Shown: piece by piece, positions 28,701 through 29,605 of the stretch
How positions within the stretch are numbered: the first letter of the stretch is position 1
Layout: each line of letters begins with the position of its first letter
Notes under the pieces: model-generated
What the model saw: only the letters and a program-made list of their open reading frames with translations
What the model was told of the DNA's origin: nothing
Database searches by the model: none
Made by a program: the position numbers and the translations under genes
DNA from: Cypionkella aquatica
GTDB lineage: Bacteria; Pseudomonadota; Alphaproteobacteria; Rhodobacterales; Rhodobacteraceae
DNA length: 64,000 nt
Direction: 5' to 3'
Assembly (NCBI RefSeq): GCF_030161095.1
Contig: NZ_BSPP01000002.1
Coordinates: 315,789-379,788 of the forward strand

Positions 28701-28865
28701 CTAAACGCGACCCGTCAGCATCAACACGATCACAATAATCACAACCACCCCAATGACCCCGACGCCGCCGTGACCATAACCATAGCCGTACCCGCCAAAG
28801 CGGCCACTAAAGCCGCCCAGCAGGAAGATGATCAACACGATCAGCAGAATTGTTCCAAGCGACAT
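28701..28865 (-). CDS. DUF3309 small membrane protein
   Basis: A 54-residue protein reading MSLGTILLIVLIIFLLGG, then a Gly/Tyr/His linker (RFGGYGYGYGHGG), then a second hydrophobic segment ending LTGRV. Two helices with a glycine-rich loop and the MSLGTILLI start fit DUF3309. The function is unknown. It is downstream of the csbD-like gene on the same strand, so it may share the stress-type promoter at 29271. It is easily missed at 55 codons. Confidence 0.75.
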   Translation of the reverse strand: MSLGTILLIVLIIFLLGGFSGRFGGYGYGYGHGGVGVIGVVVIIVIVLMLTGRV

Positions 28866-28888: not shown

Positions 28889-28932
28889 GGGCCAGACCAA
28901 TCGGCTAAGCTTGCTAACTAAAGGTCTGGCCC
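28889..28932. promoter_or_regulatory. Ten-base perfect inverted repeat between csbD-like and DUF3309 genes
   Basis: GGGCCAGACC (28889-28898) pairs with GGTCTGGCCC (28923-28932) over a 24-base loop. A further CTCTGGCCC follows at 28942-28950. It lies just upstream of the DUF3309 start and may be a leader hairpin, an attenuator or an operator. Confidence 0.4.
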
Positions 28933-28988: not shown

Positions 28989-29174
28989 TTATTTGCCCTT
29001 GACCACTTCGCGCACCTTGTCTTTTGCCGAACCAACCGCGTTCTGAACCCGGCCTTCGACCTGCTCGGCCTTGCCTTCGGCTTCCATCTTGGCATCGCCA
29101 ATCACCGAACCAACTGCTGCTTTCGCCTTACCCGCAACCACTTTGGCCGAGCCTACGATCCGATCTTTGTCCAT
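28989..29174 (-). CDS. CsbD-family stress protein
   Basis: A 61-residue hydrophilic helical protein from ATG 29174 (AGGAGC upstream). It has the CsbD pattern VGSAKVVAGKAKAAVGSVIGD and KAEGKAEQVEGRVQN. Members are strongly induced in general stress and stationary phase; their biochemical role is unknown. A GGAAC-N16-CGTTTG promoter lies about 97 bp upstream. Confidence 0.88.
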   Translation of the reverse strand: MDKDRIVGSAKVVAGKAKAAVGSVIGDAKMEAEGKAEQVEGRVQNAVGSAKDKVREVVKGK

Positions 29175-29270: not shown

Positions 29271-29297
29271 CAAACGCATCATGCAGCAAACGGTTCC
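29271..29297 (-). promoter_or_regulatory. EcfG-like promoter driving the csbD-type gene
   Basis: On the minus strand GGAAC (-35, 29297-29293), exactly 16 bases, then CGTTTG (-10, 29276-29271). This equals the published consensus for alphaproteobacterial general-stress ECF sigma factors. It points toward csbD-like and DUF3309 genes. Confidence 0.7.
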
Positions 29298-29389
29298 GTC
29301 TGGGCCAACATTCAGCCTGCCCAAATGCACCGCATAGGCCGCTGCGGTTTGATCGCCGCAAAGCCAAACACAATCCTTCACAATTTCGT

Positions 29390-29416
29390 GGAACCAATCC
29401 GTATCAGCGGCGTTTG
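29390..29416 (+). promoter_or_regulatory. EcfG-like promoter driving the 25-residue peptide gene
   Basis: GGAAC (29390-29394), exactly 16 bases, then CGTTTG (29411-29416), with the same spacing and same -10 as the divergent promoter at 29271-29297. It lies 46 bp before the ATG at 29463. Confidence 0.7.
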
Positions 29417-29462
29417 AGTGGCAAGACCTAACAAGACCTACGCAGAAACAAAGGAGACTGCC

Positions 29463-29540
29463 ATGAAAGGTATCGCCGCTTACTTCCTCGGGATCCCGGT
29501 TGTTGTGATCATTTTGCTGTATGTGACGGGTATTTTTTAA
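29463..29540 (+). CDS. 25-residue single-pass membrane peptide
   Basis: The ATG has a near-perfect RBS (AAAGGAGAC at 29450-29458). The 25-residue product starts MKGIAAYFLG and is one hydrophobic helix ending LLYVTGIF. It has its own stress-type promoter and a strong terminator, so it is a complete small transcription unit. The function is unknown; very small stress-induced membrane peptides often tune membrane enzymes or act under envelope stress. Support is by signals rather than homology. Confidence 0.65.
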   Translation: MKGIAAYFLGIPVVVIILLYVTGIF

Positions 29541-29563
29541 TACCTCTGGCAGCCAACTCAATC

Positions 29564-29605
29564 AAACAAACAGCCGAGGGTGCGCCCTCGGCTGTTTGTT
29601 TTTCA
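29564..29605 (+). terminator. Strong terminator after the 25-residue peptide gene
   Basis: A 17-base perfect stem (29564-29580 with 29585-29601) with a TGCG loop, ending in TTTGTTTTTC. The A-rich left arm makes it usable from both strands. Confidence 0.9.

Follow-up and report, generated by a model that had tools for sequence, protein, structure and literature searches.

A conserved 25-residue peptide behind EcfG-type promoters is probably an overlooked stress protein of Alphaproteobacteria

Introduction

The closest described system to the locus treated here is the EcfG regulon of Alphaproteobacteria, controlled by PhyR, NepR and EcfG and known through RpoE2 in Sinorhizobium meliloti. Its recognition consensus has been given as GGAAC-N16-CGTT with frequent GCAAC variants (PMC7083833), as GAAC-N16,17-C/GGTT (PMC4814048) and, in Sphingomonas, as GGAAC-N17-20-GTT (PMC6599016). 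In this context, we analyzed a 64-kb stretch of the Cypionkella aquatica genome (the window; contig NZ_BSPP01000002.1, positions 315,789 to 379,788, from a 4.04-Mb assembly of 29 contigs, G000), in which a promoter of this form precedes a 25-codon gene for a small hydrophobic peptide. The peptide belongs to a conserved family that annotation tends to pass over and that is probably an overlooked stress protein; from the sequence comparisons below we consider it very probable that it is a real EcfG-controlled microprotein.

Regulons of this kind are poorly charted. In S. meliloti 1021, intergenic transcripts, small RNAs and new open reading frames (ORFs) have been reported to depend on rpoE2, and of 202 protein-coding genes whose expression rose when rpoE2 was overexpressed, 150 had no predicted function (PMC3616915). 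Judged by that report, the general stress response of Alphaproteobacteria acts mostly on genes without a known function. Work on novel small proteins of the same species describes SEP6, recovered chiefly from the membrane/ribosome pellet and conserved among Hyphomicrobiales (PMC10117765).

A compact unit on the plus strand

The plus strand of the window carries a compact unit, flanked on one side by a CsbD-like gene and, downstream, by an acyl-CoA thioesterase-like gene (the latter named by eye). Its EcfG-type promoter, an exact match to GGAAC-N16-CGTTTG, spans 29390-29416, with the -35 element GGAAC at 29390-29394 and the -10 element CGTT at 29411-29414. A ribosome-binding site, AAAGGAG (29450-29456), stands six bases before the ATG of the gene, which occupies 29463-29540 (+) with its stop codon and encodes the predicted single-helix membrane microprotein MKGIAAYFLGIPVVVIILLYVTGIF, supported by sequence, conservation and codon pattern and with a best 19-residue hydropathy of 2.51. 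A mechanical ORF list opens the same frame at GTG 29418, just behind the promoter, to give 40 residues. We prefer the 25-codon ATG form, because it alone has a ribosome site and matches what relatives conserve.

The gene is followed by a probable intrinsic terminator at 29564-29601 (+), a 17-bp stem with a 4-base loop and a T run lying partly inside the stem. The hairpin folds with 17 pairs at -30.1 kcal/mol (z -7.5), and none of 200 shuffles was equally stable. It is absent from the list of a consensus terminator scan, because some Ts of the run are base-paired when the whole stem forms. With looser criteria, a scan lists it with a 14-bp core and the tail TTTTTCAAG. The peptide, its good ribosome site and the 17-bp hairpin had been described in an earlier note made from this DNA alone, and sequence and folding (with the 200 shuffles) confirm all three. 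Promoter, strong ribosome site, 25-codon gene and terminator would thus form a short self-contained unit.

The promoter is conserved in front of the peptide

The same note had claimed two opposite promoters of one exact form, and this is accurate to the base: GGAAC-N16-CGTTTG occurs twice in the window, at 29297-29271 (-) and 29390-29416 (+), and allowing one mismatch adds no further match there. Chance alone would yield a mean of 1.28 such matches with up to one mismatch per window, and 38 of 100 shuffles reach two. By itself, the promoter pattern is weak evidence. A genome-wide count was discarded as support because the motif GGAAC-N15-18-CGTT, with 91 copies, is rarer than its reversed control, with 460.

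The promoter stands above chance because it is conserved in front of the peptide across loci. Ninety loci were submitted to this analysis, comprising seven from a search of the same genus and near relatives, 30 from the order and 30 from the class (locus L001 being common to all three) and 25 best matches among named records; these are the top-scoring loci of each search (about 30), not every match. An ORF of 19-34 residues with a Gly-x-Pro core was required, which left 89 loci, 85 of them distinct. Two loci stand outside the counts: L053, which failed the filter although it is a family member, and L128, from outside the class, which gave no ORF. Since the filter itself demands the Gly-x-Pro core, the count of that motif is not used as evidence.

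Within -110 to -15 of the ATG, GGAAC-N15-17-CGTT is present in 50 of the 85 loci. Under the same test none of ten flanking windows yields more than 1, the opposite strand yields 1 and the reversed pattern 0. The site starts between -49 and -73 in 49 of these 50 loci and at -100 in the remaining one. With up to one mismatch, a site lies at -80 to -18 in 71 of 85 loci (eight control windows, 0-3; opposite strand, 7). Later loci were then added and 90%-identical ones merged, which reduced 102 loci to 100, namely 94 alphaproteobacterial and six from outside the class. In this enlarged set the strict site precedes the peptide in 54 of the 94 alphaproteobacterial loci, as against 0-1 (of 93-94) in eight control windows, so that the promoter is indeed conserved among relatives, as the earlier note had suggested checking. 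The wider literature consensus G[GC]AAC-N15-17-[CG]GTT is found in 64 of 94 (eight control windows, 0-3). The six loci outside the class have neither the strict nor the wider site in the tested upstream interval. Counted by search, the strict site occurs in 25/35 loci from genus and order, 9/29 from the class, 16/21 best named-record matches and 4/9 from a broader search, and is therefore commonest in Rhodobacterales; the seven loci of the same-genus and near search have it in three cases and the wider consensus in five. The peptide promoters of the Paracoccus type (L026, L028, L090, L094 and L097) have a two-way form, resembling that of the phyR-nepR interval described below, in which the second -10 element is relaxed.

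These results bear on the simplest alternative, a chance ORF beside chance promoter matches. The lack of genome-wide enrichment of the pattern alone would suit it; conservation of both peptide and promoter contradicts it, as do terminator-like hairpins within 110 bases 3' of the peptide in 27 of the 85 loci (controls 0-3, by the looser scan), and we regard it as extremely improbable.

A peptide family missed by annotation

The peptide family is wider than the earlier note could see. Conservation in relatives, which the note had left to be checked, was found: the peptide occurs in five of 14 other same-genus genomes and in one of 46 further genomes. In the order, 30 of 292 genomes carry it, spread over 13 of 113 genera, and a wider profile raises the number to 33 of 292; in the class it is present in 41 of 385. 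Named carriers include Paracoccus, Cypionkella, Pseudorhodobacter, Gemmobacter, Xanthobacter, Agrobacterium, Rhodospirillales and Sinorhizobium. Outside the class, 11 genomes gave a peptide match, of which seven were fetched and the four weakest left out. The members keep the Gly-x-Pro core and are 23-27 residues long, a range set in part by the 19-34-residue filter. In each of the ten pairs that five same-genus orthologues form, synonymous codon changes outnumber non-synonymous ones, by as little as 6 to 5 in one pair. Together, the ribosome site and this purifying selection point to a translated microprotein. The selection also argues against a transcript that acts as a small regulatory RNA with an incidental ORF. 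The short unit, its strong hairpin and the small RNAs reported under the EcfG orthologue RpoE2 (PMC3616915) would be compatible with such an RNA; protein-level conservation across orders, the synonymous bias and the near-constant length (itself partly filter-set) make it very improbable.

Plasmid records illustrate how the family has been passed over. The S. meliloti form, of 24 residues, lies on pSymB in the interval between exoT and exoI, behind GGAACGGTTTGCGGCACGCCGCGTT. In strain 2011 this homologue occupies NC_020560.1:1179532-1179603. Searches with the Agrobacterium, Paracoccus and Sinorhizobium forms returned 79, 82 and 97 plasmid records, respectively, and a search with a family-like peptide returned no plasmid match. 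Two annotated coding sequences end in the peptide, one of 62 residues in S. meliloti ml45 and one of 87 residues in Paracoccus ferrooxidans (L108:2387-2575 and L110:2315-2578); both annotated starts look wrong, because they precede the peptide's own promoter. Many other plasmid records show no feature at the peptide in the gene table used, which is incomplete. Common gene finders generally skip genes shorter than about 90 bases, which would explain the missing annotations.

The 25 members scanned fall in no Pfam or NCBIfam family. Weak profile matches comprise four NCBIfam families with one member each (best E 0.036) and one Pfam family (E 0.97), and the window peptide reaches 13 bits where the cut-off is 69 and 9.4 where it is 25.4. 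A search of papers for the peptide sequence as a string found none, supplementary tables excepted, and no paper on it was found among titles and the beginnings of abstracts, again outside supplementary tables. An S. meliloti homologue may nevertheless already be listed in such tables. As for the pSymB interval, the main text of PMC3616915, its tables aside, mentions none of exoT, exoW and SMb2095x, and the main text of PMC6180224, which extends the S. meliloti rpoE2 regulon, does not name exoT.

The general stress response locus

The earlier note had proposed looking for phyR, nepR and ecfG, and the genome holds a complete locus with all of them, namely phyR followed by nepR, ecfG and an HWE kinase gene, with the only NepR match of the genome. 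In the phyR-nepR interval (L009:6642-6673, G000:C2), GGAACCAAACGCATGACTGCACGTTTGGTTCC reads as two overlapping opposite EcfG promoters, such that the -35 element of one falls on the -10 element of the other. We also inspected 16 stretches around motif sites chosen from the 91 in the genome. The genes 3' of these sites include phyR, a DUF883-like, a catalase-like, a universal-stress-like, two receiver-domain and a PRC-barrel-like gene, assigned by eye except for the phyR locus; four sites (L014 on the minus strand, L019, L023 and L024) have no downstream gene under the rule used.

The peptide also travels with this system. In the order, nepR is present in 28 of 30 peptide-bearing and 166 of 262 peptide-less genomes (Fisher p 4.5e-4; overlap counted by eye), and in the class in 28 of 41 and 38 of 344, respectively (p 4.8e-15; likewise by eye). 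Among the 13 class genomes with the peptide and without a NepR match, seven have a PhyR_sigma2 match, a profile that also matches EcfG and that was applied, within the class, to peptide-bearing genomes.

By the known pathway, stress would lead to phosphorylation of PhyR, upon which NepR would free EcfG. RNA polymerase carrying EcfG could then transcribe the microprotein gene and, divergently, csbD. The peptide would insert into the inner membrane as one helix, with the Lys-2 end in the cytoplasm, and may there stabilise or tune a larger stress-induced membrane protein.

A candidate membrane partner

A candidate for this larger protein was spotted by reading operons and not by clustering. A gene for a membrane protein of about 300 residues adjoins the peptide gene in 17 of 106 loci. 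It lies downstream in L073, L074, L076, L081 and five Mesorhizobium-like genomes, is divergent in L070, and is upstream in L082 and in all six ORF-bearing loci from outside the class. Seven of the 17 linked loci supplied seeds for the partner model and one more, L113, coincides with seed L131, which leaves nine independent. A Neorhizobium plasmid and a Mesorhizobium plasmid share the same order, peptide then partner. Members such as L131:2917-3837 (-) and L116:1585-2508 (+) were noted. Scoring of two members gives about four hydrophobic segments for the family, and an alignment of five shows invariant HGF and RLR stretches. Four partner proteins gave weak Pfam and NCBIfam matches, none above cut-off, and the single match to a solved structure (E 0.4) was dismissed as chance-level. 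The outside-class relatives L113, L117, L126, L127, L129 and L130 keep peptide and partner with no EcfG-type site in the tested interval.

The partner profile matched six of the 17 peptide-bearing genomes tested, including that of the window (E 2.9e-33). Here the relative lies at G000:C1:44431-45369 (-), behind a GGAAC-N16-CGTT site and a different 24-residue hydrophobic ORF. This second ORF, MGGIIYLVGLVVIVMAILSFLGMH (L135; G000:C1:45513-45439, -), has the EcfG-type site (G000:C1:45573-45597) on one side and the gene for a 339-residue membrane protein on the other. A comparable 24-residue ORF stands 5' of the partner relative in five of seven loci examined (L133-L139), with a strict upstream EcfG-type site in two of the five, a relaxed one in one and none found in two. 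Homology between the two small families was considered and is unsupported (hhalign probability 2.6%).

A role as small partner is suggested because some relatives adjoin the 300-residue protein and because the window genome has a relative of it behind an EcfG-type site. We give about even chances to an EcfG-regulon unit whose peptide is the small partner of a larger membrane protein, and the mechanism itself, action as a small partner, we infer with a similarly divided expectation. In the broader form of this proposal, the family of about 25 residues would be an overlooked effector arm of the EcfG response, paired with a stress membrane protein of about 300 residues, and missed because its gene is too short for gene finders or because the annotated start precedes the promoter; the outside-class relatives keep the pair without an EcfG-type site. 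We see the prospects of this broader form as evenly poised.

Several observations weigh against this proposal. Of the 17 peptide-bearing genomes tested, 11 gave no match to the partner profile, and in no Rhodobacterales locus does the partner stand beside the peptide; the two are not linked in the window either. Even the wider consensus is missing from 30 of the 94 alphaproteobacterial loci. The peptide was not found in most genomes of the order (262 of 292) and is therefore not essential to the stress response. Two carriers, G230 (L029) and G269 (L027), have the peptide with no NepR or PhyR-type domain found. Locus counts and co-occurrence statistics ignore phylogeny. Furthermore, PhyR of Rhodobacter sphaeroides, from the same order, is reported to have no major general-stress role and to act only in membrane stress (PMC5830050). 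As a separate observation, L029 has a strict EcfG-type site despite the missing NepR and PhyR-type domains.

The absence of a partner gene beside the peptide in Rhodobacterales would agree with an EcfG-controlled microprotein that has some other specific role, such as binding a respiratory or transport complex or lipid, unrelated to the 300-residue protein. The exoT-exoI position in Sinorhizobium fits this idea, as does the fact that CydX, KdpF and other small membrane proteins serve such complexes. Neighbouring genes offer it little: apart from the 300-residue protein, neighbour clusters are bound to Rhodobacterales, except a variable five-locus sensor-kinase-like cluster and a nine-locus cluster with a single member from outside, and we judge this role rather unlikely. 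In that clustering, for which at least five loci were required, the largest cluster (15 loci) consists of ORFs that overlap the peptide, 14 of them sharing its frame. Those next in size are entirely, or in all but one member, from Rhodobacterales and include an upstream ABC-F gene (10 loci; by eye). A sensor-kinase-like gene, also named by eye, lies no more than about 2 kb from the peptide in L083, L059, L102, L054 and L056, which belong to different groups, with varying position and strand.

Alternatively, an EcfG-controlled microprotein might act on the membrane itself, lowering its potential or slowing growth under stress in the manner of TisB, a stress-induced type I toxin. Size and hydrophobicity fit, as does a single stress-type unit with a strong hairpin. 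A sigma-70 consensus scan shows no promoter for an antisense RNA across the gene, a scan that can't exclude one. Rfam gives no match at gathering score and three weaker ones, the best (E 0.008) to a yeast snoRNA, which likewise can't exclude an antitoxin RNA. The Gly-x-Pro core and, in some loci, the linked membrane protein suggest specific binding instead, and a membrane-acting toxin appears unlikely. The small-partner proposal is the one we prefer.

The divergent csbD side

The second promoter, an exact GGAAC-N16-CGTTTG match at 29271-29297 (-), faces away from the microprotein and precedes a csbD-like stress gene of 61 residues (28989-29174, -; PF05532, E 1.8e-17), followed by a gene for a small DUF3309 membrane protein of 54 residues (28701-28865, -; PF11752, E 3.6e-10); the Pfam matches agree with the CsbD-like and DUF3309 identities assigned in the earlier reading. 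In loci of the same layout, GGAAC-N16-CGTT on the csbD side is kept in five of five, the window genome counted (L001-L005). The two genes are 123 bp apart, and this spacing contains an inverted repeat at 28890-28931, GGCCAGACC / GGTCTGGCC, without a T run. The repeat might separate or process the two transcripts. The earlier note had both genes served by this promoter, in which case DUF3309 would share the csbD transcript.

Comparison with known systems

A conserved microprotein with a clear promoter would be a cheap, testable effector in S. meliloti and Paracoccus denitrificans. More generally, the case illustrates that genes below the length annotation can handle may be found by following a stress promoter that recurs.

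CydX, KdpF and AcrZ are single-helix helper proteins that resemble the peptide in size, in having one helix and in possible partner binding, with no match in sequence family. SEP6 of S. meliloti is another likeness, with fewer than 30 residues and a predicted helix, though it can be likened to the exoT-exoI peptide by its description only (PMC10117765). The rpoE2-dependent intergenic regions and new ORFs described for that species (PMC3616915) resemble the predicted window unit as unannotated transcripts under the EcfG orthologue. With the EcfG regulon as a whole, the locus has in common the promoter form, the cognate locus in the genome and the csbD-type neighbour, whereas the target of the window unit differs in being a 25-codon gene without a Pfam or NCBIfam family.
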